Below are positions 9,666 to 45,114 of a stretch of 64,000 bases of DNA, in pieces. The notes beneath the pieces were generated by a model. The model had not been told where the DNA came from and searched no databases. It was given only the letters and a program-made list of their open reading frames with translations. This stretch comes from Tridacna crocea (lineage: Eukaryota; Mollusca; Bivalvia; Cardiida; Cardiidae). The stretch's first letter is position 1, and each line of letters starts with the position of its first letter. The stretch spans positions 17,365,235-17,429,234 of the forward strand of contig OX031069.1 in assembly GCA_943736015.1 (NCBI GenBank), read 5' to 3'. Made by a program: the position numbers and the translations under genes.

Positions 9666-11560
9666 AGCTCACAGGAGCACAACATGCTCAAGGGCAGCTT
9701 TTAGGATCACCCTGTGTCCCTCTTACCTTGTCCGTAGTCCATCTGCAACAATTCTTGTAACTTCTTCTCCTCCTAAAATGCTGGACCAATTAGACCGAAC
9801 TTGGCTGGAATGATCCTTGGGAGGTCTTCTTTAGGAACTGTTCACAGAATTTGATTCTATCAAAAACTCTGGTTGCCATGGCAACCAAATGGAATTTTCA
9901 AAGAAATGCTTTAAAAATCTCCTCTGAAACCACTGGTCAGATTTTTATACGCCCGTCGAAGACGGGACGTATTATGGGATCACCCGTGGCGGGCGGGCGG
10001 GCGGGCGGCGTCCAGTTCTTTGTCCGGAGCATATCTCCAAAACTATACAAGCTAGGGTTATGAAATTTCATGGGTGGATAGATCTCATCGAGGCGGAGTG
10101 CAGTGCACAGGAATCATAACTCTTGCTTGCTTAATTTTTGAGTTATTGCCCTTTGTTGTTTTTCATACTTGAATTTTGTCCGGAGCATATCTCCAAAACT
10201 ATACTAGCTAGGGTTATGAAATTTCATGGGTGGATAGATCTCATCGAGGGGGAGTGCAGTGCACAAGAATCATAACTCTTGCTTGCTTAATTTTTGAGTT
10301 ATTGCCCTTTGTTGTTTTTCATACTTGAATTTTGTCCGGAGCATATCTTCAAAACTATACTAGCTAGGGTTATGAAATTTTATGGGTGGATAGATCTCAT
10401 TCAGGGGGAGTGCAGTGCACAAGAATCATAACTCTTGCTCGCTTAATTTTTGAGTTATTGCCCTTTGTTGTTTTTCATACTTGAATTTTGTCCGGAGCAT
10501 ATCTCCAAAACTATACTAGCTAGGGTTATGAAATTTCATGGGTGGATAGATCTCACCGAGGCAGAGTGCAGTGCACAGGAATCATAACTCTTGCTCGCTT
10601 AATTTTTGAGTTATTGCCCTTTGTCGTTTTTTATACTTGATTTTTGTCCGGTGAATATCTCCAAAACTATACTAGCTAGGGTTATGAAATTTCATGGGTG
10701 GATAGATCTCACCGAGGCAGAGTGCAGTGCATAGGAATCATAACTCTTGCTTGCTTAATTTTTGAGTTATTGCCCTTTGTCGTTTTTCATACTTGATTTT
10801 TGTCCGAAGCATATCACCAATACTATACTAGCTAGGGTTATGAAATTTCATGGGTGGATAGATCTCATGGATGGGGGGTGCAGTGCACACAAATCACAAC
10901 TCTTGCTTGCTTAATTTTTGAGTTATTGCCCTTTGTTGTTTTTCATACTTGAATTTGGTCCGGAGCATATCTCCAAAACTATAGTAGCTAGGGTTATGAA
11001 ATTTCATGGGTGGATAGATCTCACTGAGGGGGAGTGCAGTGCACAAGAATCATAACTCTTGCTTTCTTAATTTTTGAGTTATTGCCCTTTGTCATTTTTT
11101 ATACTTGAATTTTGTCCGGTGAATATCTCCAAAACTATACTAGCTAGGGTTATGAAATTTCATGGGTGGATAGATCTCACCGAGGTGGAGTGCAGTGCAC
11201 AGGAATCATAACTCTTGCTTGCTTAATTTTTGAGTTATTGCCCTTTGTCGTTTTTCATACTTGATTTTTGTCCGAAGTATATCTCTAAAACTATACTAGC
11301 TAGGGTTATGAAATTTCATTGGTGGATAGATCTCATCAAGGGGGAGTGCAGTGCACCGAAATCACAACTCTTGCTTGCTTAATTTTTGAGTTATTGCCCT
11401 TTGTTGTTTTTCATATTTGAATTTTGTCTGGTGCATGCCCCAGCTTTACAACTTGGGGTAAGACGGGCGTATCTTGCGACAATTTGCCGCTCTTGTTAAA
11501 TAATGTCACAGAAGTTTTCCTAAAATAACCCTTTTCAAAAGAAATTGGAGCAGGGGATCT
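9666..11560 (+). mobile_element. Family C element split by a nested family J element
   Basis: It begins AGCTCACAGGAGCACAACAT after a T run, with the 5' hairpin GAGCA-CAACA-TGCTC. It continues to GGTCAGATTTT at 9946 and resumes at 11498 with AAATAATGTCACAG, exactly the junction seen uninterrupted in the array at 22375 (GATTTTGAAATAATTTCACA). It has no coding capacity. The right end is degenerate. Confidence 0.8.
9947..11497 (+). mobile_element. Family J hairpin-ended element with 9-unit tandem core
   Basis: The 5' end ATACGCCCGTCGAAGACGGG forms a stem CCCGTC/GACGGG with a GAA loop. A core of about nine units of roughly 155 bp (GCATATCTCCAAAACTATAC) follows. The 3' end has GACGGGCGTAT, the inverted repeat of the 5' end, then the imperfect hairpin GCGACAATTTGCCGC and CTCTTGTT. 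It is inserted between T residues inside a family C element. I infer a non-autonomous Helentron-like element. Confidence 0.85.
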
Positions 11561-11612
11561 AATTTGAGACCATTTTTATTCAGTTTCTGGTTTTCTACTT
11601 ACCAATCTTTCT

Positions 11613-11841
11613 TTAACCCATTACCACACAATCCCTACTTTTGACGCCCCTGAGAAAGAAGCCTTTTGAAAACACTGTGGGAAAAGGAGAAAATGCTGGT
11701 AACCAGCATTTTCTCCTTTTCCCACAGTGTTTTCTACCCTTCACAAATCAAATTTCAAATTGTGAGTCACTTTTATTTTGTCGTCTGCAAATGCTTTCGA
11801 TTTGGGTAAACCTAAAATTTTGTCGTATGGTAATGAGTTAA
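11613..11841 (+). mobile_element. TTAA-MITE A
   Basis: Full copy with perfect-looking palindrome and TTAA at both ends. Confidence 0.92.
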
Positions 11842-11953
11842 CTGTGCACCAAATGACAAGATTTTAGACAGGTCCAAATTGACCAGCATTTTGTCCCTTT
11901 TCAACAATTTTTTTAGGGTCATTAAAAGTAGGGATTGGGAGGTAAAGTTTTAA
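11838..11953 (-). mobile_element. TTAA-MITE A, internally deleted, sharing a TTAA with its neighbour
   Basis: Begins in the TTAA at 11838 that also ends the previous copy. About half of the element, including the left side of the palindrome, is deleted. Confidence 0.65.
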
Positions 11954-12187
11954 AACGTTCTTAGTCTTATTCTCCAGATTTTTTTCAACGTGAAAGTAAC
12001 ATAACTTTGTGAAATAGAGGTCCTAGGTAGGGTGCTAACTTGCTGCATGATTTTGTCTTTGTGAAATACATCGTGGGAACTACAAGTTTCCAGATAAACA
12101 TTTTAACTAATGAGTCTTAGAAAAAACTGACAATTGATGGTTATTCATCTGTTCATATCGCCCAATAGCTCCAAAATTAGCTGCCAA
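11954..12187. other. Intron spacer with a family D fragment
   Basis: GTTCTTAGTCTTATTCTCCAG and GTGAAAGTAACATAACTT near 11957-12015 match one arm of palindromic family D. The rest is unassigned. Confidence 0.5.
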
Positions 12188-12455
12188 TTAACCCTTTGCC
12201 ATAAAATCTTTAGTTTCAATGTTTCTGTTCAGGAAGGCTTTTAATGTTTTTGAAAACATTGTAGCCCTGCTGTCTTTAAAGAAAATGTCAGGTAATGCTG
12301 TAGCCCTGGTATCATGGTTCAGTGACTTTGATTATATTCATTAATATGTCTGTTATTACAACCAGCATTTTTCCCTTTCCCACAATGTTTTAAGAAGGTT
12401 TCATCCTTTTGGTAAAAAAAAAAAAAAAAAAACTGGGATTGTTTAGTATACAGTT
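12188..12455 (+). mobile_element. Degenerate TTAA-MITE
   Basis: The TTAACCCTTTGCC start, GAAAACATTGTAG, ACCAGCATTTTTCCCTTTCC and GGGATTGTTTAG remain. The centre is expanded by unrelated sequence and an A20-like run. Confidence 0.55.
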
Positions 12456-12688
12456 AGATATTTTTTCCCTTTCAAAATAAGTAGGTTGACCTTGATAACA
12501 GGGAAATGTAGATAGAGAAGGAATTATTTTTGTGTGTGCTGAATTATTACCATAGAAACAAATACGAAATATTTATAATGTGTGCTGTTTTATGATTAAT
12601 ATGTCTAAAAATAGCCAATAATCAGAGTTGTTATTTAACTTTATTTTTTAAGATTCACTGATGTATACTAGCATTTATTTATTTATAG

Positions 12689-12786
12689 GATTTCACTCTC
12701 ACAACCAGATATGCATGTACCAGTCTACCCCCAACCCCAGCTCCAGAACATCATGGCCTTAGTACAGGCTCAATTCTACTTATTTT
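12689..12786 (+). CDS. MRH-domain sorting receptor, fourth exon found (MRH end and start of membrane segment)
   Basis: This exon encodes DFTLTTRYAC, the closing strand of the MRH domain with its last cysteine, then a Pro-rich stalk (TSLPPTPAPEHHG) and LSTGSILLI, the start of the transmembrane helix. LSTGSILL matches LSVGSILL of vertebrate CD-MPR almost exactly. The exon starts in phase 0 and leaves two bases. The Glu of the CD-MPR binding site maps to Thr here, while the Tyr before the last Cys is kept, so classic mannose-6-phosphate binding is doubtful. The exon end and its donor (12787) are repeated several times in the following intron as decoy-like donors. Confidence 0.87.
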
Positions 12787-13000
12787 GTAAGTACTTTATA
12801 ATATGGGCACAGTTCTGCTTATTTTGTAAGTTAAAAAAGTCTCAAATCTGCTTATTATACTATACTACAATTCTGCTTATTTTGTAGGTCCTACATAATA
12901 TGGACTCGGTTCTGCTTATTTTGTAAGTAATAAAGGCTCAGCTCTGCTGGTTTTGTAAGTAGCTTAGGCTCAAAGCTGCATAGCCTATTTTGTCAGTAAG
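12787..13000 (+). repeat. Amplified 5' splice site of the MRH exon
   Basis: After the true donor at 12787, the exon end (TTCTGCTTATTTT) plus GTAAGT-like donor recurs with GT at 12826, 12884, 12923, 12955 and 12992, at a spacing of about 32-58 bp. It is a local minisatellite seeded on the exon-intron junction. Confidence 0.8.
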
Positions 13001-13063
13001 GTTTAATTTGGCTTTTTTATGGTAATAGGTCAGGCTCCTTTCAGCTGAATTTGTTATTAAAAC

Positions 13064-13153
13064 AGGCTTTAATTTTTTACATTTCCAAATTGAAAGCATT
13101 TGCAGATGGCTCAAATGGTGGGGTTTATCTTTCACAGGGTAGAAAAAAGTGTG
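13064..13153 (-). mobile_element. TTAA-MITE A left-arm fragment
   Basis: The words CCAAATTGAAAGCATTTGCA and CACAGGGTAGAAAA are kept. It breaks off before the palindrome. Confidence 0.6.
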
Positions 13154-13157
13154 GATA

Positions 13158-13359
13158 ACCTGTTATCAGACGAGAAAATTTAGCCTTGTCCAGATTGAAA
13201 GCATTTGCAAACAATCACTTCAATGTGGCTAAAATGGTACAATTTTTCTTTCACAGGTAGAAAACATTGTGGAAAAAAGGAGAAAATGGTGGTTACCACA
13301 ATGTTTTTAGGTCTCTTTTCTAGGGTGGTCAAAAGTCAGCATTGTGCGGTAAAGGCTTA
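13158..13359 (-). mobile_element. TTAA-MITE A
   Basis: Reverse copy with a shortened palindrome (ATGGTGGTTACCACAATG). Its right TTAA (13356) is shared with the next copy. Confidence 0.8.
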
Positions 13360-13588
13360 ACCCATCACCACACAATGCCTGCTTTTGACTCCCCAGGGAA
13401 AGAAGCCTTTTTGAAAACACTGTAGGAAAAGGAGAAAATGCTGGTAACCGGCATTTTCTCCTTTTCCAACAATGTTTTCTACCCTTCTCAGAACAAATTT
13501 CCATTTTTTTCAGTCACATTTATTTTGTCTTCTGCAAATGCTTTAAGTTTGAACCAGTATAAAATTTTGTCGTGTGGTAAAGAGTTAA
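13356..13588 (+). mobile_element. TTAA-MITE A, tail-to-head with the previous copy
   Basis: Full forward copy starting in the shared TTAA and ending at TTAA 13585. Confidence 0.9.
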
Positions 13589-13735
13589 GAAGAAAATCCT
13601 GTTTTCCAGCATTGTTCCTTTCCATCAATTCCATTTTTAAAAACCTAATGTTAGTTTATGACTAGAAGTAACTGATAAGCACATGATTTCGTTTTTATCG
13701 GCATATTGATTGTATGTATTTGAGTTCTACAGCTT

Positions 13736-14160
13736 AGGCCATATCAGTGCAGCCAGTGTACCTATGTATGTTGTTCTTTTTCCTTTTCACACACCAACTC
13801 TGACACATTTCTTCTTTCCAGGCCACTGACTGATTTCTCACATGCATCAGGCCTACGAAAAAAATTATTTGTGTGTAGGGTTTCCTGACCCTACCTAGAA
13901 AAAGCTACTGACCTCAAACTGTCAATAGTAAAACTGAAAAAAAAAGTCTGTAGGTTGTGATTTCCTTTCGTGGTCCGTGTTAAAAAAAATTCTTGAAAAA
14001 AGTCCATACCTACCCTTTTTCTTTACAGCATCTTTGCACCCAAGCTCTTTAGATAATTATTAAAGGTCAGAGCCAAAAAAAATGCTTACCCTGACTGGGT
14101 ATCACACCAGCAACCAACAGGTTACAAGGCAAACCACTAAGCTATCAACCTGGGCAACTT
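13736..14160 (-). repeat. tRNA-derived SINE, interrupted
   Basis: Tail words (TTTCTCACATGCATCAGGCC) lie at 13736-13860. A tRNA-like head lies at 14088-14160, in complement TAGCTTAGTGGTTTGCC and GTGTGATACCC. About 220 bp separate them. Confidence 0.45.
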
Positions 14161-14198
14161 ACTATATAGAGTAAATCTGAATTTTGTGTTTATTTCAG

Positions 14199-14325
14199 AT
14201 TTTTTGTATTCCTAGCCGTATATTTTATCGGAGGAGTCTTGTTTTTAAAGTTTGTTAGAGGTGCTCAAGGTACAGAGTTGGTTCCAAATTTAGAATTTTG
14301 GACAGTGCTTCCAGGTCTTATAAAG
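14199..14325 (+). CDS. MRH-domain sorting receptor, fifth exon found (transmembrane helix and tail start)
   Basis: The exon starts with one base completing Leu, then FFVFLAVYFIGGVLFLKFV, the hydrophobic membrane span, followed by RGAQGTELVPNLEFWTVL and PGLIK. It corresponds to the CD-MPR segment running from LVAVYVVGG through GAKGMEQFPHLAFW. It ends in phase 0 before GTATGG. The TTAA of a truncated MITE begins at 14336, only 10 bp into the intron. The Gly-Ala-x-Gly and Pro-x-Leu-x-Phe-Trp pattern is the strongest single piece of family evidence in this gene. Confidence 0.9.
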
Positions 14326-14335
14326 GTATGGACTT

Positions 14336-14436
14336 TTAACCCTTTCCCAAACAATCTCTGGTTTTCAGGATCCTTTAAAGGAGACCTTTTGAAAACATGT
14401 GAGAAAAGGAGAAAATGCTGGTAACATTTTCTGAAA
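14336..14436 (+). mobile_element. TTAA-MITE A, right half missing, 10 bp from a splice donor
   Basis: The TTAA starts 10 bp after the MRH exon ending at 14325. The copy stops just past the palindrome centre (GCTGGTAAC). Confidence 0.8.
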
Positions 14437-14569
14437 AAATTTAGAAGGTGCTGAGATAAGTTTTATCTGCAGTGAGCTGAACATTTTCACGTCCTCTCTT
14501 TTTTGATTCAGTGTTGGGCAATTTTCCTCTGTCAGTGTCATCCTTGATGCAACACTACTCTGGCGAGCT

Positions 14570-14930
14570 TATAAATAGAGTTTATTTCATCAGCTTGTGG
14601 TTAATATGGGGAAATATTTGCTGAAAAAGGAAAGTCTGCGAAAATAATGAATGCCTTACGGCACTTTCTATTTTCACGGACCTTTCCCTTTTTTGGTAAA
14701 TACTTCCCCATATTATCCACAAACTGATGAAATAAATTATATATTTCCTCTGATTATTTTGTCAACGAATGCCAACTAATAATCTCTAGTCTATTAACCG
14801 ATTAAGTCAAGTTTCATTAAAGTTGAACAAAAAAAGTAGTTCCAGAATTTCGGCAGGAGGAAAATGTTCACTGAAATGGGGAAATAATTACCCCCAGCTT
14901 AAATTACGACATTTCTTTACCCATAACATT
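14570..14930 (+). mobile_element. Palindromic element family U
   Basis: Inverted arms (TTTATTTCATCAGCTTGTGG against CCACAAACTGATGAAATAAA) surround a centre with TGCCTTACGGCA. The tail holds AGTAGTTCCAGAATTTCGGC, as in the tandem pair at 54211-55101. Confidence 0.6.
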
Positions 14931-15163
14931 TCTAAAAATAGACACATGAAATATGATATTGTTTTTTTTCATGGAGGAGTTTGATAGGATTTTACCTCAA
15001 AAGCCAAGAATTATTGGAATCTATCACATAACTCTTATCAAGAATTATAGTTTTTGATGTGTTGAATACAGCCCGTCATATACATTTGTATTGAAAATTA
15101 CCTAAAGCCTCTTTGCTACTTTGACAGGTAAATTAAAGGATGTAAAAGACTTCCAAAGAAACT

Positions 15164-15391
15164 TTAACCATTTCCCAAACAAGCCCTGATTTTTATGTGT
15201 CCGCAGTAAACGTCTTTTGAAAACACTGTGGGAAAAGGAGAAATTGCTCGTAAAGAGCAATTTCTCCTTTTCCCACAGTGTTTTCTACCCTGTTTGAGAT
15301 CTTTCTGGCATTTTCACCAAATCTAAAATTGTCGTCTGCAAACTCTTTTGGTTTGGAAGAGTCCAAAATTTGTCGTTTGGGAAAGGGTTAA
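15164..15391 (+). mobile_element. TTAA-MITE A with a B-like centre
   Basis: The arms are type A, but the palindrome centre reads AATTGCTCGTAAAGAGCAATT, closer to subfamily B. TTAA is present at both ends. Confidence 0.88.
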
Positions 15392-15628
15392 TACACATAG
15401 TGATTTTGTTTTTAATCTATCTATTACCAGCTTTCACCAATTTTGAAAAGAAATCTGGGTCAGCATTGATTTAGACATAATTACAGAAAGTTGCCTTAAC
15501 ACAGCACTCACAATTTGTTTGTTTCAAATGTGTGTAAGGTAAGAAAAATTTGTAATGGTTGCATTATACTGAAAACAAAGGTACATGTACTTACGTGATA
15601 AAAATAGATTTGTCTTTCTGCTTTTCAG

Positions 15629-15688
15629 GAGGGATTCCAGTTTACATTTCGTGGATGTAAGACCAGCACCTCATACTCTCAGATTTAG
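15629..15688 (+). CDS. MRH-domain sorting receptor, last coding exon
   Basis: The exon follows CTTTTCAG in phase 0 and encodes EGFQFTFRGCKTSTSYSQI, then TAG at 15686-15688. The EGFQF segment matches the DGCDF region of CD-MPR. The protein ends in YSQI, which fits the YxxPhi tyrosine sorting signal read by AP adaptor complexes. Yeast ATG27 also ends in such a motif, whereas vertebrate CD-MPR has a longer tail with an acidic dileucine signal. The tail therefore points to endosomal or lysosomal sorting through a Tyr signal. No canonical AATAAA is obvious in the next 150 bp, so the 3' end of the transcript is not placed. Confidence 0.85.
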   Translation, partial: EGFQFTFRGCKTSTSYSQI

Positions 15689-15871
15689 CGACAGTTGGAA
15701 CAAGTGGGCAGAATATGGGATGTACATATTAGCAATCAAAACCTGCTGAATTTTTATATGCTCACCAACTATAGTAAAATAGCCATAAACCAAACATTTC
15801 AATTTAAGCCTCTTGTCATTTGTCATCTGCTTTCACAAGCATTGTGCTAAAATTGCTTCTGCGTGAAATGG
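15689..15871. other. 3' region of the MRH receptor gene
   Basis: This is the presumed 3' UTR. No clear AATAAA is seen before the MITE at 15872. Confidence 0.4.
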
Positions 15872-16032
15872 TTAACTCTTTACCAAATTATAAAATTTTG
15901 GACTCAACCAAGTTGAAAGCATTTACAGACAACAAATTAATTGTAGCTCCAGTGATGATTTCTGTCCTTGATAGAGGAGAAATCACTTTTGGAAAAGGGA
16001 GAAAATGCTAGAAACTAGAGTTTTGTCTCCCT
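15872..16032 (-). mobile_element. TTAA-MITE A, right arm missing
   Basis: Reverse copy from TTAACTCTTTACC to a shortened palindrome, fused directly to the following B copy. Confidence 0.7.
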
Positions 16033-16246
16033 TAAGGTATTTATATGGTATCTCTAATTGATACTAAATAATAGCAAAGATGAAGCAGTTTCTTATGTGT
16101 ATATGGTACCTTTTGATGGTATAGAAAACATTGTGACAAAAGGTGAAATTGCTCGTCACCAGCAATTTCACCGTTTGCCACAATGTTTTCCAAAGGCTCC
16201 TACAAGCAATGCGTAGAAATTGAGTATCTGTGGAGTAAAGGGTTAA
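16033..16246 (+). mobile_element. TTAA-MITE B, left tip lost
   Basis: Centre GCTCGTCACCAGC and right end GGAGTAAAGGGTTAA (TTAA 16243). A right-arm scrap of an A copy follows at 16248-16310. Confidence 0.82.
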
Positions 16247-16310
16247 CACAATGTTTTGAAAAGCCATCTTTTTCAGCGTTGTTAAAACCATGTGATTTTG
16301 TGAATTAAGG

Positions 16311-16592
16311 TTGTTGGAGTATTTTTCTGAAAATGTTGTAGCAAAAGGTTGGTCTTTAAAGATACCCATTTACTCATTTTAGCAGAATGTAGAAATGTGT
16401 TTAAAATCAATAAATTAGAAAAATCTGTGGCCCCAAAGAATAAAAGGAAGTTTAAGATTTGTTATTTGAAATGAATTTTGGTCAGGAGAAAATTGTGTCT
16501 GGTCAGAATTATAAACAATGGGGAAGTGTAGCTCTAGAGTTGTTTACACACACAGGGCCATCTAAAAATAGAAAGCTAGATTACTTGTTGCT
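16311..16592. other. Spacer, nothing recognised
   Basis: AT-rich, with no reading frame or repeat match within the window. Confidence 0.35.
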
Positions 16593-16822: not shown

Positions 16823-16994
16823 CACACATAATGGCACACTTGTCTGTATGTAAGATCATGTCCTCCCTTCCTTTAGCAATCCAAAAACGGGAAATTTTAA
16901 TGTGCTCGTACAAAATTTACATTTCTGTCTTTAAACAATTCCACTGCACTGACGATATAAAATTCTGACTTCCTGCTGTTGGGTTATTGTGACA

Positions 16995-17874: not shown

Positions 17875-17881
17875 ATAAGGT

Positions 17882-22129: not shown

Positions 22130-22374
22130 AGAGGTTATCTGTAGTTTCGGGGTCACATAGGTCAAGGTCACAGGGGATATTGTTTTGAAAATCTTTTCCA
22201 TTCTCCGATTCTTATGCTTCAGTGACAAGCTGCTGGTAGGGGGTATTTGTCTACTTTGTGGTTGTTCTAAACTTTGTGGTTGTTTTGTGCTTTGTGGTTG
22301 ATTTATGCTTTGTGGTTGTTCTAGTTTTGATGCTGCCGCATTGATGGCTTTTTTTTTGTGAAAACATTCTTTTT

Positions 22375-23971
22375 AGCTCACCTGAGCACAACGTGCTCAA
22401 GGGGAGCTTTTAGGATCACCCGGTGTCCGTCCTTCGTCCTCCGTCGTCAACAATTCTTTAAACATCAACTCCTCCTAAACCGCTGGGTGGATTTGGACCA
22501 AACTTGGGAAAAATGTTTCTTGGGAGGTCCTCTTTAAAAATTGTTCACAGAATTTGATTCCATCAAAAACTCTGGTTGCCATGGCAACCAAATGGAATTT
22601 TTTAGCAAATTCTTTAAAAATCTTCTCCTCTGAAACCGCTGGTCGGATTTTGAAATAATTTCACAGATATGTTCCTTGGGTAACCCTTTTCAAAAACATT
22701 TCGTGAAATTTTGATCCGTCAAAAAATGTGGCTCTGGTGAATGGGGGCTACTTGCACTATACAGAAATGAAGGAATTCTTTAAAAATCTTCTCCTCTGAA
22801 ACCGCAGGTCAGATTTTGAAATAATTTCACAGATATGTTCCTTGGGTGACCCTTTTCAAAACTTGTTCGTGAAATTTTGATCCGTCAAAACATGTGGCTC
22901 TGGTATATGGGGGCTACTTGCACTATACAGAAATGAAGGAATTCTTAAAAAATCTTCTTCTCTGAAACCGCTGGTCAGATTTTGAAATAATTTCACAGAT
23001 ATGTTCCTTGGGTGACCCTTTTCAAAGGTTGTTCGCGAAATTTTGATTGGTCAAGAAACATGACTCTGGTGAATGGGGGCTTCTTGCACTATACAGAAAT
23101 GAAGAAATTCTTAAAAAATCTTCTTCTCTGAAACAGCGGATTAGATTTTGAAATAATTTCACAGAGTTGATCCTTTGGTGACCCTTTTCAAAAATTGTTC
23201 GCGAAATTTTGATTGATCAAGAAACATGGCTCTGGTGAATGGGGGCTACTTGCACTATACAGAAATGAAGAAATTCTTGAACATTTTTCTTCTCTGAAAT
23301 GGCTGGACAGATTTTGAAATAATTTCACAGAGATGTTCCTTGGGTGATCCTGTTCTAAAATTGTTCGCGAAATTTTGATTGGCCAAGAAACATGGCTCTG
23401 GTGAACGAGGGCTACTTGCACTATATGGAAATGAAGAAATTCTTGAAAATTCTTCTTCTCTGAAACCCATTGTCAGATTTTAAAATAATCTGACAGAGAT
23501 GTTCCTTGGGTGACCCTTTCAAAAGCTGTACATATAATTTTGATCCGTCAAGAAACATGGCTCTTGTGAATTGGGGCTACTTGCACTATACGGACATGAT
23601 GAAATTGTTGAAAATTCTCTTTCTCTGAAACCCCTGGTCAGATTTTAGAAGAAATTTTCCAAAATGTTCTTTGGGTGACCCTTTTCAAAACTTGTTCGTA
23701 AATTTTGATCCATCAAGAAACATGGCTCTCGTGGATGAGGGCTACTTGCTCTTATACAGAAATCAAGAATTCTTAAAAATTCTTCTTTTTGAAACTGATG
23801 GTCAGATTTCGAAATGACTTTTACAGGTGACCTTTTGAAAATTGCTTGGCAAAATTATAAATTTGGTTCCAATGTTTCAATTGCCCCCCCCTCCTCCTCC
23901 CCTCCAAAAATAGACTATGGTCATCTCAAAAATTCAGGTGAGCGATCCAGGACCATCTTGGCCCTCTTGTT
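22375..23971 (+). mobile_element. Family C hairpin-ended element with about 8-unit tandem core
   Basis: The 5' end AGCTCACCTGAGCACAACGT has stem GAGCAC/GTGCTC. Core units of about 165 bp follow (GGCTACTTGCACTATACAGA). The 3' end has CAGGTGAGCGATCC, the inverted repeat of the 5' end, a hairpin AGGACCATCTTGGCCCT and CTCTTGTT. It is flanked by T runs. Confidence 0.85.
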
Positions 23972-28747: not shown

Positions 28748-28810
28748 ATGATATACCTCTGTGTAACATTTACATTGTTTTCTAAGAGATCATTGAAATT
28801 CTTAGTTGTT

Positions 28811-29119
28811 ATACTCCTGCAAAATGAACGTTTTCGGGGTATACTGGAATCAGCCAGTCAGTCTGTGTGTCCGTCTGTCTGTCTGTCTGTCCGTGTGTAT
28901 ACAAAATACTAGGAATTTTGTGTCGCAAACTCTTCCTACAGTTTTCCTTCAATTGTATTGACACTGCAAATATATTGATCATATATTGAAGATTTGCAAG
29001 ACGCAATTTTCAAGTGTCAACTTTCCCTGGTTGAGGAATTATCTCCCCTTGAATTTGACACGTTTTTCTGTCAAAGTGCTGGCGAGGGTATTAAGTCACA
29101 TTCAGTGACAGCTGTAGCT
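28811..29119 (+). mobile_element. Family Q hairpin-ended element
   Basis: The 5' end ATACTCCTGCAAAATGAACG has an imperfect AAAA-TGAAC-TTTT type hairpin. A (GTCT)n tract follows. The 3' end has GAGGGTAT, the inverted repeat of ATACTCC, then hairpin GTCAC-ATTCA-GTGAC and AGCTGTAGCT. At about 309 bp it lacks a long tandem core. Confidence 0.7.
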
Positions 29120-29254
29120 ATATTTATTTTCAGTTGAATAACTATCAGCCTTTAACCGTTAACTTGCTAAACTTGTGAAATAAAACTTGCGAGCCGATAT
29201 TAAGTATCAAAATTTTGCCATGTCATGTGACTCATTTGGGAAAAAAATTACCCA

Positions 29255-29330
29255 TATCAGACAGTGTATATTGAAGGTTCGACTGCATGTTCTGTGCAGT
29301 CTGATCTTAATATAATCTATCTGTAAATAG
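29255..29330. mobile_element. Palindromic family F
   Basis: ACTGCATGTTCTGTGCAGTC centre with decayed arms (CAGACAGTGTATATTG). Confidence 0.6.
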
Positions 29331-29364
29331 TCTTAATGTCAGGCTAAGCAGCCTAAGGGTTACT

Positions 29365-29593
29365 TTAACTCTCTACCAAACAATTCCTGGTTTTAACGAC
29401 CCAGAGAAAGAAGCCTTATGAAAACACTTTGGGAGAAGGAGAAAATGCTGGTAACCAGCATTTTCTCCTTTTCCCACAACGTTTTCTACTTTTCTAGAGT
29501 CAAGTTTCAATTTTTGATTCATGTTTATTTTGTTGTCTGCAAATGCTTTCAATTTGGACAAGTCTAATATTTTGTTGTTTGATAAAGAGTTAA
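29365..29593 (+). mobile_element. TTAA-MITE A
   Basis: Full copy between TTAA at 29365 and 29590. Confidence 0.92.
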
Positions 29594-29801
29594 ATGTAAT
29601 TTGATGAAAGTATCACTGGTACCCGACAATGGAAACTCAGATCTTTAGTTGATAGAGATGTGCATCTGTTTGATGCAAATTTTGTAGTGTATGTGTAATT
29701 TATAACAATGAATTAATTTTGAATTGTGACTTGTTTGTTATTGTCTTATCTTAGTATTGCGTGTCTAAACAAAAGCTGTGACATGATACTCTTTTTGTTG
29801 T

Positions 29802-30072
29802 AGCCAGGACCCAGTAGTTTAGTTGGTATCATACAGGACTTGAAAAGAAGAGGTCCCTGGTTCGAGTGCCCACTTAACCAATTTCTTTTTGAGGATTGAT
29901 GATAGTCATTGCGACAGGATTCATTCCTCTCCCACCGCTGACCATTGTTTCGAAGATGGTTATGTGGGAAATCCTGCATTGGCTTGGAAACAAAATTAAG
30001 CGGAATACTGATTAAAAAAAAAAAAATGTAGAGAAGCATGTTTGGGTGTACTGGCCGCTGCGATATAACTTG
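29802..30072 (+). mobile_element. tRNA-derived SINE (V-type body)
   Basis: Head CCCAGTAGTTTAGTTGGTAT and box B-like GGTTCGAGTGCC, body GATAGTCATTGCGACAGGAT, then an A13 run and GGTGTACTGGCCGCTGCGAT. Confidence 0.75.
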
Positions 30073-30118
30073 CATAATGTTGAAAACAGCTAATCAATTT
30101 CGGGTGATTCAGGATTGT

Positions 30119-30192
30119 GTCCTCTAACTCATCAGTAAATATTGTGTAATACCGACGTTTTCTTAAAGGTTGTTCGGCCAATTTCAGCATCT
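30119..30192 (+). repeat. Dispersed repeat O, left copy
   Basis: ATATTGTGTAATACCGACGT and GTTCGGCCAATTTCAGCATC match the segment at 31479-31555, so the two flank a family C element. Confidence 0.6.
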
Positions 30193-30203
30193 TTGGTCTT
30201 TTT

Positions 30204-31452
30204 AGCTCACCTGAGCACGAAGTGCTCAGAGTGAGCTATTGTGATAGTGCTGTGTCCGGCGTCCGTCATGCATCGTCCATCGTCAACCTTTACCTTGTGT
30301 ACACTCTAGAGGCCACATTTTCAGTCCGATACTCATTAAAGTTTGTCAGAATGTTTGCCTCGATGAAATCTCGGACAAGTTTGAAATTGGGTCATGTTGG
30401 GTCAAAAACTAGGTCACAAGGTCAAATCTAAGAAAAACCTTGTGTACGCTCTAGAGGCCACATTTTGAGTCCGATACTCATGAAATGTAGTCAGAATGTT
30501 TGCCTGTATGATACCTCGGACGAGTTCGAAAATTGGTCATGTTGGGTCAAAAACTAGGTCACTAGGTCAAATCTTAGAAAAACCTTTTGTACGCTCTAGA
30601 GGCAACATTTTGTGTCCAAAACTCTTGAAAGTTGTACAGAATGTTTGTCTTGATGATATCTCGAACAAGTTCGAAAATGGGTCATGTCGGGTCAAAAACT
30701 AGATCACTACGTCAAATCTTAGAAAAGCCGTGTGTAAGCTCTAGAGGCCACATTTTCAGTCTGATACTCATGAAAATTGGTCAGAATGTTTGTCTTAATT
30801 ATATCTCGGATTAGTTTGAAAATAGGTCATGTCGGGTCAAAAACTAAGTCACTAGGTCAAATCTTAGAGAAACCTTTTGTATGCTCTAGAGGCCACATTT
30901 TCAGTCCAAAACTCTTGAAAGTTGGTCAGAATGTTGGCCTTGATGATATCTCAGATGAGTTTGAAAATGGGGCGTGTCGGGTCAAAAACTAGGTCACCTA
31001 AAACTTGTTCATAATATTTGCCATGGTGATACCTTGAATGAGTTTGAAAATATGTCAAGTGGAGTCAAAAACTAGGTCACTGGGTCAAATATTAGAAAAA
31101 CCTTGTGTACACTCTAAAGGCCACATTTTCTGCCTGATACTCTTGAAACTTGGTCAGAATGTTTGTTTTGGTGATGTCTCAAAAGAGTTTGATAATGGGT
31201 AATTGTCGGGTCCAAAACTAGGTCACTTGGTTAAATCTTAGAAAAACCTCTTGTACACTGTAGAGGCCATATTTTCAGTCCAATACTCATGAAACTTGGT
31301 CAGAATGTTTGTCTTATTGATATCTCAAAAGTGTTTGATGATGGGTAATGTCTAATAAAAAACTAGTTCACTGGAAAACTGGATTGAAAATGGTTCATGT
31401 TTGGTCAATAGACTCAGATGAGTAATTTCAGGGCCATCATGGCCCTCTTGTT
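30204..31452 (+). mobile_element. Family C hairpin-ended element with about 8-unit tandem core
   Basis: The 5' end AGCTCACCTGAGCACGAAGT has stem GAGCAC/GTGCTC and a GAA loop. Units of about 145 bp (CGCTCTAGAGGCCACATTTT) follow. The 3' end has hairpin AGGGCCATCATGGCCCT and CTCTTGTT. Its core differs from the family C member at 22375 but its ends match. Confidence 0.88.
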
Positions 31453-31469
31453 ATATGAGAGTTAGGGGC

Positions 31470-31557
31470 CGTAGACTCACTAACCCATCGGAAAATATTG
31501 CGTAACTTCCACGTTTTCGCAAAGGCTATTCGGCCAATCTCGGCAGCTTCAACTCGG
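31470..31557 (+). repeat. Dispersed repeat O, right copy
   Basis: AATATTGCGTAACTTCCACG and CTATTCGGCCAATCTCGGCA, similar to the copy at 30119. Confidence 0.6.
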
Positions 31558-31632
31558 TATTGTGCATTATATAATCTGAAAGGTGTACGCACAGAATACA
31601 TAGATCCCAAATTATCAAAACGACACATTTTT

Positions 31633-32878
31633 ATGCTCCCCGAAGGGCGAGCATATAGTCGCCGCTTCGTCTGTCCGTCCGTCTGTCCGTCCGTCCTTCC
31701 GTCCGTCTGTCCGTCCGTCCGTCCGTCCGTCCGAAGCCATTTCTCCACAACCCTTGGACCAAATTGGATGAAACTTCATATATGAACTCCTTAGGGTAAT
31801 GCGCCGATATACTTTTCCCGGATTTTCAATTTGACCCCGTGTCATGGAAAAAAGGGGCTTAATGCAAAATTGCAATTTTTACCAATATCTCATTCAGTTT
31901 TTGTCAGAATATCATGAAACTTCATGGTTATATTGTTTATGGAAAGTTTTAGCATGTGCCCTTGCTATTTTTAATCTGGGCATTTTTTAAGTTGACGTTC
32001 TGTCATGGAAAAAGGGGGCTTCTTGCAAAATTCCAATTTTTACTAATATTTCATTCAGTTTTGGTCAAAATTTCATTAAACTTCATGGTTATATTGTTTT
32101 TTCAAAGTTTCACCATGTGCTCTTGTTTCTATATCTATGTGTTTTTCAATTTGACCCTTTGTCATGGAAAAAGGGGGTTTCTTGTAAAATGAAAAAGGGG
32201 CCCTAATGCAAAATTGCAATTTTTACTAAAACTTGTTCAGTTTTTATCAACATTTCATGGTCATGTCTTGTTTTACAAGTTTCAACATGTGCCCTTTGTT
32301 TTTGCAATCTATGAATTATTAATACGCAAATACGTCTTTCCTGGTTTCTCAAATTAAGGCTGCGTCACAGAAAAAGGGGACTTCATGGAAAAAATTGTTT
32401 TTCACTAGGTTCTCCTTTATCAGTGCTCAAAACTTTGTGAAATTTCAAATCTGAACTTGGTGGAACGTTGCCCAGGTACCTCTCTTCCTTTTTCTCAATT
32501 TCAGGCTGCGTCTCGGAAAAAGGGGGCTGGGGGGCTTCATGTAAAAAATTGTTTTATGTAATATTTAATACATGACTGCCAAAATTTTATGAAATTTCGA
32601 ATTTTGAATTATTATTAAAAAATGCCACAAACCACACACCCATTGTATTTATTGCAATGATCCAATATTGTCTTATGGGAAAAGGGGGCTTATTGGGCTT
32701 GTTGTCCTCTACAAGTTTATGTTGGCTATCTCTAAGATAGTAATTGCCTTTTCACTTCAAATTTTTGGGGGCATGAAGAGGTTCTTCTTGGATAAAAGAA
32801 GTAAATTTATATCAATGTCTTATATTTTATGACAAGCACTTGTTCGGGGAGCATAACCCGTCTCTGACGGCTCTTGTT
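31633..32878 (+). mobile_element. Family P hairpin-ended element with tandem core
   Basis: The 5' end ATGCTCCCCGAAGGGCGAGC folds with a GAA loop. A CCGT/CTGT microsatellite (31669-31732) and about six degenerate units of roughly 150 bp (GTCATGGAAAAAGGGGGCTT) follow. The 3' end has TTCGGGGAGCAT, the inverted repeat of the 5' end, hairpin CCGTC-TCT-GACGG and CTCTTGTT. Confidence 0.88.
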
Positions 32879-32882
32879 TTTT

Positions 32883-38098: not shown

Positions 38099-38114
38099 CT
38101 TTATATTAAGAATA

Positions 38115-38262
38115 TTAAAAAACTATTTACCGCAGAATCCCGAATTTGAACCACCCTGAGAAGGGCAGCTTTTGAAAACGTTGTTGGAAAAGGAGAAAAT
38201 GCTGGTTACCAGCTTTTTTTCCTTTTCCCACAATGTTTTCTACCGTTCCCAAAACGAATTTA
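38115..38262 (+). mobile_element. TTAA-MITE A, cut by a Tc1-like element
   Basis: The left arm and palindrome remain. The right arm stops at CCCAAAACGAATTT, where the Tc1-like terminal repeat begins. The palindrome centre is T although the arm order is forward, the one clear exception to the orientation tag. Confidence 0.75.
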
Positions 38263-38757
38263 AATGAAGGTGGTACTAAAATCAAAGTTGCAAAAGTATC
38301 CAAAGACTAAGGGAATATAAAAGTTAGGTTTTTTTTCTTTTAAATTCTTGTAATTTTTAAATCAATATCTTGTATGGCCACCCCTGCTGTCGATACAGGC
38401 AATTATTCGATGTCGCATAGACCTTACATAACGTATTGCATCAGTAATGTTATTCCATTCCTGAACGAGAGCGGTGGCCAAGTCCATGAGATTGTTGAAG
38501 ATTCGCCGTGACCGAAGCTTTGTTGCTAAGTAATCCCAGACGTGTTCCATTGGATTCATATCCGGCGATAAAGCTGGCCAAGGAAGCGTCAACAGTGTTT
38601 CTGTTCAGAAACTGCTGATTGATTCGTGCAGAGATGGCCATACAAGATATTGATGAAAAAATTACAAGAACTTCAAGAAAAGCCTAACTGTAATGTTACT
38701 TTAGTCTTTGAGTACTTTCGCAATTTTGATTTTAGTACCGCCTTCATTTAAACTGCA
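38259..38757 (-). mobile_element. Internally deleted Tc1/mariner-type transposon
   Basis: Terminal inverted repeats of about 70 bp (TTTAAATGAAGGTGGTACTA against TAGTACCGCCTTCATTTAAA) enclose 500 bp. The minus strand encodes the C-terminal transposase end PWPALSPDMNPMEHVWDYL, with the last catalytic acid, and IACIDSRGGHTRY (38362-38592). A frame change separates it from the preceding QQFLNRNTVD segment. The catalytic core upstream is missing, so it is non-autonomous. Confidence 0.88.
38362..38640 (-). pseudogene. Tc1-like transposase, C-terminal remnant
   Basis: MTLPWPALSPDMNPMEHVWD runs through W-x-x-I (EWNNITDAIRYV) to a GGHTRY end and a stop. The adjoining INQQFLNRNTVD lies in another frame. 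The first two catalytic aspartates are not present in this element, so it cannot encode an active enzyme. Confidence 0.85.
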
Positions 38758-39149
38758 AAAACCTGACTTAAACTTTCTATTAGTCAAAATCTGATTGGCC
38801 TGGAATTTTCTACAGACTCTGAACTGAAGCATTATAACAAATTAATTTTGTTCATCTTCATTAAAACACGCGACGAGAAATAAAAGAAAATTAAGTGCAC
38901 ACTATTTATGGAACTGGGTATATTTATGCTGCAAAAAAATCAGGTAAACTGCGAAAGAACCTTCAAAGATCTCAGAGATTATTGAGAAAAGAAAGAAAAG
39001 AATCAATAGAAAATATATTTTATCACCCAAGGCATTGCAGGCTTTTATAATTTTTTTAAGACTGTAAATTCAGGAAATGAAGCAACACATGAAGCCATCC
39101 AAATTTAAGACCTCAAAAGAGGTCTTCATATTACTAGCTGAAGTAAACT

Positions 39150-39507
39150 TTTATCACATAACACTCCTTCTTCTTCGAAGATTCGACCTGTCTTATATGG
39201 GGCATCACTAGCCCCGAAAGCGGACAGACTGTAATATTACGCTCTGTAAAGTAGCAATGTAGAAAATCGCTTTTATCAATACGTTTGAGGACAAATGAGA
39301 CCTGCTTTAGCACCTGATTTCTCTTAACTACTAATAGTAGTTGAGAGAAATGCACGACTTAGCGTTTTATTGAGTAAACATTTATTTTAGTTTGAAATTC
39401 AAAGTAGCGGTTCTCGCGTACGACAGTGGTTCGGTTCTGGACCCAGGATGCCCAAATTAGATAGATGAGTATTTATAGAATGCCATCTAGCGGGAGATAA
39501 TGGTTTT
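39150..39507 (+). repeat. Dispersed repeat H
   Basis: Shares CTTCGAAGATTCGACCTGTC, TAGCCCCGAAAGCG, GCGTTTTATTGAGTAAACAT and GCCATCTAGCGGGAGATAAT with copies at 53040 (+) and 56385 (-). Function unknown. Confidence 0.75.
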
Positions 39508-40137
39508 CAATGTAATACAACCATTACGAATTTTCTTGTCTCACACGCGTGTGAGATCAGAAAATAGTGCTGTATTTGGTCAACACTCTGTGATTATACG
39601 CTTTATTCTAAAACATTACTGATTAAGGTTCCCAATGAAAATTGGTGGTCAAAATTCTTCATGGTGATAAAGTTGTTAATTTAATCACTTGTGGACTCAA
39701 AACATAATCAGTATATAATGCAACTTTCTTCGGTACTGTTTTTCGTTCGTCAAAGTAAGCGCACAGGCTTCATGTAAATTTCACTACACATGATACATAT
39801 ATGCCTCTGGCTTAACACAATTTGGAATATAAACTTTTTGTTATATAGTAAAGTGATAAAAAGAATCTGACACTCGTCTGTTTTTGAGGTAAAAAATTAT
39901 TAAACTCGTCCACAAAAAATGTTTTTAAGCTCGCCAAAGGCTCGCTCAATAACATTTTTGTAGACTCGTATAATAGTTTTTTTTTTTATCTCAAAAACCA
40001 ACTCAAGTCAGATCCTATATTTCTCTGCTGATGAAATACTGAAGTCCATTTGCAATCTCAAAAATCCTAAAGGATCAAGTGCAAAGGATAACATCCTGAA
40101 TAAATACACTTATCGTACGAAAGACAAACTATCGCCG
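39508..40137. other. Spacer, nothing recognised
   Basis: A short palindrome TCTCACACGCGTGTGAGA lies at about 39539-39556. No gene is supported. Confidence 0.4.
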
Positions 40138-40512
40138 GTGTAATGCAGAGAAATGACCCTCCACTACAAAATGATCCATGGGTCATTTCACTACGTAGAG
40201 GGATGAGCCGGGTCAATTTTCTATGTCAAGAAATGACCCAAGATGATTATTTCTCTACGCACCAATTTTCAGTACACTTTGCACATTATGTACACAGTGC
40301 AGGTGTAATGCAGAGAAATACCCCCCCCCCCGCCCCCTACACACACACAAAATGACTCAACGTAGAGGAATTACCCTGGTCATTATTCCACATAGAGAAA
40401 TGACCAAGAGGGTCATTCCTCTACGTAGTGAAATGACTTCTGCGGTCATTTCTCTACGAAGAATAATGACCCGGGTCATTTTGTAGGGGAGGGTGATTTC
40501 TCAGCATTACAC
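40138..40512. mobile_element. TIR element made of repeated inverted GTCATTTCTCTACG blocks
   Basis: The ends GTGTAATGCAGAGAAATGAC and its mirror (GTGATTTCTCAGCATTACAC) are inverted. Inside, GAAATGACC and GGTCATTTC words alternate many times with CTACGTAG joints. A second internal copy of the left end starts near 40310. There is no coding capacity. Confidence 0.7.
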
Positions 40513-41340
40513 AGGTCCGTCCATACTGTTTCTCGATAAATGTTCAAATGTTTAGACACTTGATCTGTTTCTAATGTTAGTTTTCATAAGAGTTTTTCCT
40601 CTTTCTTAGTCAGCTGTAGAAACTGGATCCAATAAATACTCTCGGCAGCCGTTGATCAGTGTGGCAGGAAAGATCTTGAGTACTATCCTTGATCGCCAGT
40701 TTATACACATCTCTAACAACACTGATTAACTTACTTCCCCTTTCTAACATACTGACCCCAAAAGAGAAAACTTGAGAAATTCCTCTTTATATCCTCAGGG
40801 ACCAATTGATCCCATATATTCATCAATCTGTTCAATTATCCAAAGCTATTTAATCAGACCCAAACAAAGCTACTGGATTATTTAAATAAGGTTATCTTTA
40901 ATGCTGGTCGTAACCAACGCAACGTGTTTGAATTGAATCGCTCACGCAGACTGCTCAAAACACCTTTCAGAAACTACTCACAGATGGTGAAGGCATTTTC
41001 CCTCTGCATTTCACTTTCATACTGAAAGTTTCTAGGCCATTGGAATCAAATTGGGTTTTGGTAGGCACAACCTTAAATCATTCCACAAGCTTTTGACCAG
41101 CGGCTTCACTTAGTTCCTTCAGACTGTTTTCACTTGAACTTAACTAAGAGGTTTTCCCACTAAAATTAAAACATTTACGTTACAGAGACCAGAGCTTTAT
41201 TTTATAAGTCATAAATTTTACCTTTACTTGCTGGCATCATGCACTGTGTGACATTAACTTTGACATAAGTTTGGGGTCATTGAGGAAGATGCTTACAGAT
41301 CGAGCTGTTTGATTTCTGAAATTTCAACAAGTATGGGATC
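40513..41340. other. Unassigned, may belong to the adjacent hAT-like fossil
   Basis: No intact reading frame. The position next to the hAT-like fragment on its downstream side suggests decayed transposase, but I see no motif. Confidence 0.3.
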
Positions 41341-41664
41341 CTACCGGCACCACCACAAAAACTGAGAGTCAGCGTGTAAGCAATATGACGCTTGGCAAAA
41401 AATGCCAGGAGCAATATATTTCATCTTTTGAAAAAAAAACAACTTGTTGCCAACCATTGCAGCAGCACCATCGGTGTCGATTTCTCTAAGTAACTTGACA
41501 TCAGTTTCCTTTGTACTTAACATTTTAAGAACAACAAAATAAATACTTTCATCACTGGCTCTATCTAACTGTGTTATTTCTGTAACCCTACCAAATGCAT
41601 CATTTTCTAAAATGCGTATCACCCTATGTAAACTGCGAAACAGAAATATCCATGGACTTTTCAT
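41341..41664 (-). pseudogene. hAT-type transposase fragment
   Basis: The segment REIDTDGAAAMVGNKLFFFQ and KYIAPGIFCQASYCLHAD resembles the TDGAPAMxG ... H-C-x-x-H region conserved in hAT and ZBED/SCAND3-type proteins. The second expected His of THCxLHR reads as SYCLHAD. It is a fragment without the rest of the catalytic domain. Confidence 0.6.
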
Positions 41665-41814
41665 CCATTTAACTAAACCTATCCTATCATTTAACCTTAG
41701 ACACTAAATCCATTGTTGGAGTCACTGGTGTTTTTTGTCTGCGTGTAATTCTTTCAGCTGATTACACCCCTGAAGAGGACTCCGGAATTTCTAACACTAA
41801 AAAGTACAAGTTAC

Positions 41815-43710
41815 ATTAACATGGAAAAACAAAGGGGTCAATATATATTGGGGCTACTTTTCTATTACGGCCTTTTGACCCCATGGTGATATTTTTGAAT
41901 CGTTTTTAAAGCTTTATAAACATAGCCATTATCATTTATACTAAATACAAATATAGGATAAGTATAATTTTTATTGGTATGTAGAGCGAAGTAATGCCAA
42001 CAATCTACATGTATGAGAAGTTCGCTTCTCTATTTTAGTATTTTGACGCAGAAGTCATAAAGCATTTAAAAAGCTTTGTCATTTTCATGCCAATACAAAA
42101 ACAGTGTCAAAACAATTCCATGTTGAAGCCAGTGGGTGTCAATTCTTATTTATACCCAACACACACTAAAAAGAATAACTACAAAATACACTGCTTTGTA
42201 AAAAAAAAGGGGGGGGATCAACAATCTAATTAAAGGTTACTTTTCTATTTCAGTATTTTGATGCAGGTTACAGTTTACATTCCCATGTTAAAACCAAAGA
42301 GTTTCAATATTATGTTAATGTCTTTAGACTCGAGGGTCATAAAGCGATTGTATACAGATAAAGATTTCTTTTTTTTTCATTTATAAATAACGCACACATA
42401 CACAAACAAAAGTTCAATCTACATTTCTATGTTAAAACAACGGGATGCCAACAGATTATAGTAGGCCTAAGGTCATTTTTCTGCTATACTATTTTTGAAC
42501 ATAGGCTCATAAAACATTCATAAAGCATAACATTTTTTTATAAATACCGAACACAAAACAGTATCAGTACAGAATCACTGACTCCTAAATACAAAGGGAT
42601 CAATAGTCCTTTGGATGATCACTTACTGTTAAAGTATCTTAACTCAAGGATAATAAAGCACTTTTAACCACTTACATATAGATATTTTACCGAATATAAA
42701 GCTTTAGACTAGCAAATTAGCATTGCCCTCTAAAAATGAAACGGGTCATTTATCTTTGGGGTGACAGCTTTTCAATTATAGTATTTTGACCCCAAGCTTC
42801 ATGAAACATTTGTAATTAATATATGACAACTTTCAAACTATAACAAAGATAAGAACAATTCATATCAGCAAGTAAAAGCCAAGGAGAAGTTGTAAGAAAT
42901 CTATTTTACTCTTATTGTCTCTCCTGACACAGTGAAGTACAGTGACCTCCCCTATTCTAAAAATAGACGGTCAGAATTTTGCATGTCTATTTTTAGAATA
43001 GCAGGAGGTCACAGTTATTTACCTTATATCCTCTCGTTTCTAGTAGCCTGTTACGCAGATCCATAATGACATTGTTCATGAATTGTGCGTGTTAATTTAC
43101 TTGCAGATTGAAATGATTTTTTAACTGATTGGATTCGTATACTACCGTGATTTGCAACGGCATTGTCACCCATCAAAGTGCTAACCAAAACGAACGCTGT
43201 TCATCTTTCACAGGAGAAAGATACACCAAACTGCATCGCTGTAAAACCTAATCCTAACTGCAAGGCACTTTCTTAAAGTGCTGTTAAATTAAGTGTCAAT
43301 CGACTCTCCTTGACATCATTTTCCCTGTCGAGAAATCTCGACCCTGGGACTCGTATACAAATAAGTCAAATGAACATGTTAGGGTACAGCATGTCCTCTT
43401 TCAGTAAATGTAATGTGCTTAATTTGCACAGAAAAATACCAGATTATTTTCTAATGGAATCAGGGCTTAACAATAATCTCGTATGTCGTTAACATTTAAT
43501 GATTTCAAGAAAGCGCCGTCAGATTTATTCTTTTTTCTCCAGTGAAGACCAATTGTGAATAAAGTCCCTATATGTAAAACGGGCACGAGTTTAATCTATT
43601 GGGAGGTCACTTTTCTATTGAAGTCACCTGACTCAGAAATCAAAGTACAAATGTACTGTTATTAAGCAATAGCATTTTCATTTATACTAAACACAAAACA
43701 CAAAACTTTA
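41815..43710. repeat. Degenerate tandem array M (about 150-230 bp units)
   Basis: The words TTTCTATTNNAGTATTTTGA and AAAGCATTTATAAAGC-like blocks recur near 41871, 42027, 42242, 42478, 42620, 42770 and 43611. ATACTAAACACAAAACAGT also recurs. The units are strongly diverged. Confidence 0.6.
42942..43012. repeat. Hairpin E
   Basis: GTGACCTCCCCTATTCTAAA pairs with TTTAGAATAGCAGGAGGTCAC (with one bulge), a stem of about 28 bp. Confidence 0.7.
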
Positions 43711-43724
43711 TTGTTATTGATTTT

Positions 43725-45114
43725 AGCTCACCTGAGCACGAAGTGCTCATAGTCAGCTATTGTGATAGTGCGCTCTAGAGGCCACATTTTCAGTCATGAA
43801 AGTTGGTCAGAATGTTTGCCTCAATAACATCTCGGACGAGTTCGAAATTGGGTCATGTAGGTCAAAAACTAGGTCACTTGGTCAAATCTTAGAAAAACCT
43901 TGGGTACGCTCTAGATAGAGGCCACATTTTAAGTCCGATACTCATGAAAGTTGGTCAGAATGTTTGCCTTGATAAAATCTCGAAGGAGTTCGAAAATGTG
44001 TCATGTCGCGTCAAAAAACTAGGTCACTATGTCAAATCTTAGGAAAACCTTGTGTACGCGCTAGAGGCCGCATTTTCAGTCCGATAGTCATGAAAGTTGT
44101 TGAGAATATTTGCCTTGATGCTATCTCGGACGAGTTCGAAAATGGGTCATGTCGGGTCAAAAACTAGGTTACGAGGTCATATCTTAGAGAAACCTTGTGT
44201 ACGCTCTAGAGGCCACATTTTCAGTCCAAAACTTTTGAAAGTTAATCAGGATGTTTTTCTTGATGAAATCTTGAATTAGTTTGAAAATGGGTCATGTCGA
44301 ATCAAAAACTAGGACACCTGGTCAAATGTTAGAAAAACCTTTTGTACGCTCTAGAGGCCATATTTTCAGTCCAAAACTCTTGTTAGTTGGTCAGAATGTT
44401 TGTCTTGATGATATCTCGGCCGAGTTTGAAAATGGGTCATGTTGGCTAAAAATTAGGTTACCAGGTCAAATCTTAGAAAAACCTTGTATACGCTCTGGAT
44501 GTCACATTTTCAGTCCAACACTCTTGAAAATTGGTCAGAATGTTTGCCTTGATAATATCTTGGATGAGTTTGAAAATGGGTCATGTTGGGTCAAAAACCA
44601 GGTCAATATGTCAAATGTTATAAAAAATCTTGTGTATGCTCTGGAGGACACATTTTAAGTCTGATACCCCTGAAACTTGTTGATACCTTGAATGAGTTTG
44701 AAAATGGGTCGTGTGGAGTCAAAAACTAAGTCACTGGGTCAAATATTAGAAAAACCTTGTGTACACTCTAAAGGCCACATTTTCTGCCTGATACTGTTCA
44801 CGTGGTCAGAATGTTTGTTTTCGTGATGTCTCAAAAGAGTTTGATAATGGGTAATAGTCGGTCCAAAACTAGGTCACTTGGTCAAATCTTAGAAAAACCT
44901 TTTGTACGATGTAGAGGCCACATTTTTTAGTCCAATACTCATGAAACTCGGTCAGAATGTTTGTCTTATTGATGTCTTAAAAGTGTTTGATAATGGGTAA
45001 TGTCTGATTAAAAAAAAAAAAAAACTAGGTCACTTGAAAACTAGAGTGAGAATGGTTCATGTTTGGTCAATAGACTCAGGTGAGCGATTTCAGGGCCATT
45101 ATGTCCCTCTTGTT
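43725..45114 (+). mobile_element. Family C hairpin-ended element with about 9-unit tandem core
   Basis: Same ends and core type as the copy at 30204. The 5' hairpin GAGCAC-GAA-GTGCTC and 3' hairpin AGGGCCATTATGTCCCT are followed by CTCTTGTT. It ends 50 bp before the ATG of the Cys-loop receptor gene at 45164. Confidence 0.88.

Follow-up and report, generated by a model that had tools for sequence, protein, structure and literature searches.

Four hairpin-ended repeat families of Tridacna crocea as very probable non-autonomous members of the Helitron2/Helentron class

A 64,000-nucleotide stretch of the genome of the bivalve Tridacna crocea (GCA_943736015.1, contig OX031069.1, positions 17,365,235 to 17,429,234 of the forward strand), hereafter the window, carries copies of four repeat families, designated J, C, P and Q. 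These are very probably non-autonomous Helentron-associated interspersed elements (HINEs) of the Helitron2 class, belonging to diverged Helentron lineages with one inherited plan and different end sequences. The hairpin plan of the families is the published Helitron2/Helentron plan, and the four families are real but ordinary, being further members of a known transposon class. The original prediction, made from the sequence alone, had placed them among the Helentron-type rolling-circle elements, and this assignment is upheld because of the structure of their ends, their T-run targets and the coding partner of family C.

In J, C and P, a T run is followed by a 5' hairpin, the complement of its outer arm near the 3' end, a 3' hairpin and the terminal sequence CTCTTGTT. 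This shared plan had been predicted for all four families and stands for J, C and P, whose ends were located and exceed chance expectation, but not for Q, the window copy of which is decayed and carries AGCTGTAG after its 3' hairpin. All of the elements lie on the plus strand. The J element (9946..11497), delimited by pattern matches and by the boundaries of sampled copies, comprises a 5' hairpin with a GAA loop (9947-9972), 156-bp tandem repeats, a 3' subterminal inverted repeat (subTIR) with a hairpin, and CTCTTGTT. It splits a decayed C element, whose 5' part occupies 9664..9945 (C 5' end, C5, with three mismatches), with homology to the C repeat returning 3' of J and the joined J flanks matching C repeats at ~80 %. 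The C1 element (22374..23971) incorporates an AAC-loop 5' hairpin, 166-bp repeats and a 3' hairpin with CTCTTGTT. The C2 elements (30203..31452 and 43724..45114) have GAA-loop 5' hairpins, ~145-bp repeats and 3' hairpins followed by CTCTTGTT, with one mismatch in the 3' hairpin of the latter. The P element (31631..32878) adds a CGTC-type microsatellite to its GAA-loop 5' hairpin, ~161-bp repeats and 3' hairpin with CTCTTGTT, while the stem of the Q element (28809..29119) is interrupted. The GAA loop expected in the 5' stems is thus present in J, P and C2, and absent from the C element predicted at 22375 (AAC) and from Q, which has no clean loop. Exact matches to the 5' and 3' end patterns occur on the plus strand at 9946 (J5), 11462 (J3), 31631 (P5), 32843 (P3), 22373, 30202 and 43723 (C5) and 23937 (C3), and the remaining two C 3' ends run to 31452 and 45114.

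The 5' subTIRs of J, C and P match exactly and fold as a hairpin with adjacent DNA, with the window Q folding weakly (-3.3), and a 3' subTIR could be located immediately 5' of the 3' hairpin for J3, C3, P3 and Q3. Using 100 dinucleotide shuffles as control, a scan of both strands found three C-GAA-G hairpins (stem of at least 4) near a T run in the window (shuffle mean 0.66; maximum 2), and a second scan found seven hairpins followed by CTCT[TA]GTT (shuffle mean 0.43; maximum 4). The latter comprise three C ends, one P end and two ends of Q-like type near 8719 and 9037, while the seventh, on the minus strand, looks like chance. These scans missed J3, the hairpin of which is imperfect (internal mismatch; fold energy -2.1), and P5, where an inner stem of three pairs precedes a bulge. 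Three Q-like 3' ends occur in tandem at 8709-9062, with a 159-base period and no clear 5' end before each. The four families had been considered unrelated. They are not wholly so: a GRRTCACC-like block was recognised by eye 3' of the 5' hairpin in J and C1 and, with less exact agreement, in Q and two related families. The longest open reading frame (ORF) overlapping J encodes 70 amino acids, the longest in 28809-32880 encodes 109 and is situated between Q and C2, and an Rfam scan of the window gave no matches. The C2 element at 43724..45114 ends ~50 bases before an open frame (within 45114-45601) with a neurotransmitter-gated ion-channel ligand-binding domain (PF02931, E 7.6e-22).

Searches of the genome (1.05 Gb in 31 contigs; both strands) yielded 8,477 exact matches to the C5 pattern, 3,232 to J5 and 1,444 to P5 (each with at most two mismatches), 3,766 to Q5 (at most three mismatches) and 7,464 to C3 (exact, with free positions allowed), while the reversed-pattern controls for all five gave no matches genome-wide. 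Loops and stem pairs were counted by hand among 100 matches listed per family, from the first chromosomes only. The 5' loop is predominantly GAA in J (91, with AAA 5, GTA 2, GCA 1 and CAA 1) and P (87, with AAA 11, GTA 1 and GGA 1), GAAT in Q (68, with AAAT 19 and other loops 13) and AAN in C (60, with GAA 29 and other loops 11); the C1-type AAN loop accounts for 5,389 of the 8,477 C5 matches. The free pair in the C 3' stem is G-C in 63, A-T in 35 and G-T in two of the matches listed, and the G-C/A-T difference is a compensatory change between two subfamilies. CTCTTGTT terminates 94/100 C3 matches listed, part of it being fixed by the pattern itself. The copies of J are nearly identical, with the 40 best 5' matches showing 98-100 % identity over most of the query. 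Three pattern scans of viral_contigs gave no matches, although one pattern combined a subTIR printed in PMC2374699 with an arm from outside that paper, so the blank of that scan says little.

Insertion boundaries were determined from the eight best-scoring J copies, a non-random sample. The J start (TATACG) is preceded by TTTT in 8/8 copies, in line with the predicted T-run flanks, and the 3' end could be located in 7/8. The sequences 3' of CTCTTGTT differ among copies, except that L002 and L004 share one repeat as their insertion site. For J, the hairpin and CTCTTGTT are at the insertion boundaries of the sampled copies, as the original prediction had them. Among the nested J insertions, the window copy lies in a C repeat, L007 in a J repeat, and L002 and L004 in the palindromic repeat GGAGAAAATGCTGGTAACCAGCATTTTCTCC; at L015 it is a Helentron 5' end that occupies a J-repeat T run. 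The nested insertions show that T runs are target sites for J. The palindromic repeat, with at most five mismatches allowed, was found at 39 places in the window, from 725 to 62758.

For family C there is a coding partner of the Rep/helicase/endonuclease type that shares its ends. A genome search for the Helitron_like_N domain, in which 42 candidates were scored, gave 32 matches, and all five Rep proteins scanned combine DUF6570 with Helitron_like_N, and the L017 protein carries PIF1 in its C-terminal half. The Helentron-type GS-H-H motif is found in 19/30 Rep loci, some of which overlap, and the diagnostic position of RG(S/L)PHxH is S in all 19 loci that match the search expression. The neighbourhoods of thirteen Rep genes were examined, two of which (L012 and L021) were not included in the tree. 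The tree supports a C clade comprising L010, L016, L017 and L019 together with L013 and L014, the wider neighbourhoods of the last two not being among the thirteen. A C 3' end occurs downstream in sense of 4/4 C-clade genes vs 0/9 others, at 7.2 (L010), 7.0 (L016), 5.7 (L017) and 5.6 kb (L019) from the Rep motif, where the genome density of C3 predicts ~0.025 by chance per 7 kb of one strand. Three of these four genes are preceded by C 5' ends with C repeats, the loops being GAA (L019), AAA (L016) and AAT (L017). In L017, two C 5' ends are combined with a single downstream C 3' end, and the 2.2 kb beyond it are free of C repeats. A foreign Helentron inserted within a C HINE was considered and is spoken against, as no C repeats reappear before the C 3' end. 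The arrangement in L017 fits composite elements that run from an outer 5' end to the first 3' end encountered (PMC5148889). Of the 11/30 Rep loci unmatched by the search expression, seven (L020, L023, L025, L026, L028, L029 and L032) form a second Helitron_like_N clade with the motif RGM[IV]HWHG. This clade has probably been active recently, since it includes near-identical pairs (L020/L023, 99 %; L025/L026, 100 % over the stretch compared); the ends of its elements were not found.

Several observations weigh against the Helentron assignment or its details. The endonuclease match in the C-terminal half of L017 falls below the Pfam cut-off (23.0 and 23.5 bits vs 24.5), and no C 5' end was found for L010 within the stretch examined. 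Since the Rep genes of L016 and L017 are each preceded by two consecutive C 5' ends, and that of L016 also by a C 3' end (two mismatches), the outer limits of these elements are not unique. Sites in T runs cannot reveal whether a short TT is duplicated, an ambiguity also reported in PMC4067079. Lastly, the coding element with the same two ends that had been proposed as a check was found for C (L016, L017 and L019), whereas none turned up for J, P or the window Q.

The remaining Rep lineages start with different 5' ends. Over the aligned parts, some of them short, L009/L015 share 41-48 %, L033 33-42 % and L011/L012 23-32 % identity with the C clade. The 5' ends of L009 and L015 are of the GAGTCGCC type, with loops GTA and GAA, and that of L011/L012 is AGTCGCCGCGC-AGAA-GCGCG; the 3' ends of both lineages were not found in the stretches examined. 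An end pattern search matched four places, each on both strands (three of them exact and of the L015 form; control 1 and 1). L033 has the upstream 5' end TTATACCCCCCACAAAC-GAA-GTTTGGGGGTATA and, 4.7 kb beyond Rep, a Q-like 3' end. A role for L033 as coding partner of a Q-like family is suggestive only, because Q-like 3' ends in sense are also located near L009, L015 and L017. A search with the L033 5' end (at most two mismatches) gave 156 matches and lists TTATACCCCCC families whose loops are AAA and TCT. At G000:C2:24411490-24447996 a related 5' end recurs seven times, at intervals of ~6.1 kb. A rolling-circle concatemer was rejected for this series, as two unit starts agree completely over 200 bases in either direction and no 3' end occurs at the junction; it looks like a tandemly duplicated genomic block. 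Within the window, ~17 copies of a 43-base repeat form an array at 48682-49417.

The lineage of L009 and L015 might be taken for the missing coding partner of J, as both loci have a J 5' end and J repeats upstream in sense, with no J 3' end before the ORF. This is very unlikely, and was rejected on finding Helentron 5' ends in the T runs of J repeats. J is the target in L015, because the different, hairpin-bearing GAGTCGCC 5' end sits in the J-repeat T run, and in L009 it is a hairpin-ended sequence that begins at such a T run, followed by a GAGTCGCC end. Furthermore, the J parts of the two loci are ~93 % identical, whereas their longest matching coding stretch reaches 68 %, and no J 3' end occurs downstream within the stretches examined. 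The original prediction had gone further, in proposing that one Helentron transposase moves all four families by reading hairpin structure rather than sequence. It could account for the lack of a partner for J, P and the window Q despite the near identity of the J copies, for GAA-type loops recurring over unrelated stems, and for the terminal CTCTTGTT/CTCTAGTT common to the families. However, the C 3' end is restricted to one Rep clade, the Rep lineages with 23-48 % identity to this clade start at other 5' ends, and the loop varies, with AAN in C1 and AAA and TCT in related families. As motifs are shared at the sequence level, structure is also not the sole candidate signal, and a single structure-reading transposase is considered unlikely. 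The association of the C 3' end with one Rep clade, and the different 5' ends of the other lineages, favour cognate pairs of transposase and ends, although J, P and the window Q, for which no partner was found, may be cross-mobilised. On the published model, the Rep of the coding partner would nick the T run next to the 5' hairpin and its helicase would release a single strand. Copying would halt at the 3' subTIR and hairpin, and the strand or circle would be inserted in another T run without clear target duplication. The end-point proposal of PMC3627910 is that the 5' hairpin is opened when the two subTIRs pair.

That the elements are instead miniature inverted-repeat transposable elements (MITEs), satellites or canonical Helitrons is scarcely credible. 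The elements do have inverted repeats and a core of tandem repeats, and DINE-1 of Drosophila was formerly named a MITE (PMC2374699). The 3' inverted repeat is subterminal, however, with a hairpin and then a fixed end beyond it, J copies insert in T runs, and the C partner codes for Rep/helicase. Canonical Helitrons are distinguished by 5'-TC, 3'-CTRR and A/T insertion, unlike the T-run flanks and CTCTTGTT ends observed here. Among the closest described systems, Helitron2 is defined by a 5' hairpin in which the 5' inverted repeat pairs with adjacent DNA, and its 3' inverted repeat lies just 5' of the 3' hairpin, with compensatory changes there too, although the sequences are not those of the window families (PMC3627910). 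Helentrons and HINEs share the subTIRs, the 3' palindrome, a T-rich or TT target with variable T number and no target modification, and a Rep/helicase/endonuclease partner with the same ends, which was recovered here for C alone (PMC4067079). Cg_HINE of the Pacific oyster combines a left end of subTIR, inverted repeat and microsatellite with central arrays of mostly 140-180-bp repeats and a right end of subTIR and palindrome, shows TT preference and occurs as multiple families per genome; the likeness is one of described architecture, in a different genome (PMC7492417). Similarly, DINE-1 has 13-bp subTIRs, a partial inverted repeat next to its 5' subTIR, a GTCY microsatellite, central repeats, a 3' stem-loop and TT preference (PMC2374699).

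The GAA loop occurs over unrelated stems in J, C2, P, the L033 type and L015, as GAAT in Q and as AGAA in L011. As a universal mark it is ruled out by the AAN loop of C1 and by the AAA and TCT loops of the TTATACCCCCC families. AAA, the commonest non-GAA loop in J and P, is obtainable from GAA by CpG transition, and conservation of the loop within families largely reflects common descent. The suggestion that a GAA-loop 5' hairpin is undescribed mostly fails, given the 5' hairpin of PMC3627910 and the GAA-loop examples printed on unrelated stems for two Fusarium families, FoHeli1 and FoHeli2 (PMC5148889). Several 5' ends with a single 3' end are also reported for these fungal elements, which differ in their insertion at TNAT/A or T and their ATTTT terminus. 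The parts of the main texts covered contain no remark on the loop as a feature shared across families, and its recurrence over unrelated stems may be the sole point of novelty. Tentatively, and as a minority possibility, Helitron2/Helentron Reps might read a conserved 5' mark, a short GNA-triloop hairpin that is mostly C-GAA-G, which presents the initiation site single-stranded and is retained between fungi (FoHeli1 and FoHeli2) and this bivalve while stems turn over completely. In single-stranded DNA, the C-GNA-G loop is unusually stable.

Four abundant repeat families of T. crocea can thus be assigned, very probably, to a known transposon class, and one of them, C, is provided with coding partners with matching ends. 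The presence of several Helentron lineages with different ends in one genome makes cognate recognition testable, while the recurrent GAA loop represents a concrete candidate for the 5'-end recognition signal of a eukaryotic rolling-circle transposase.

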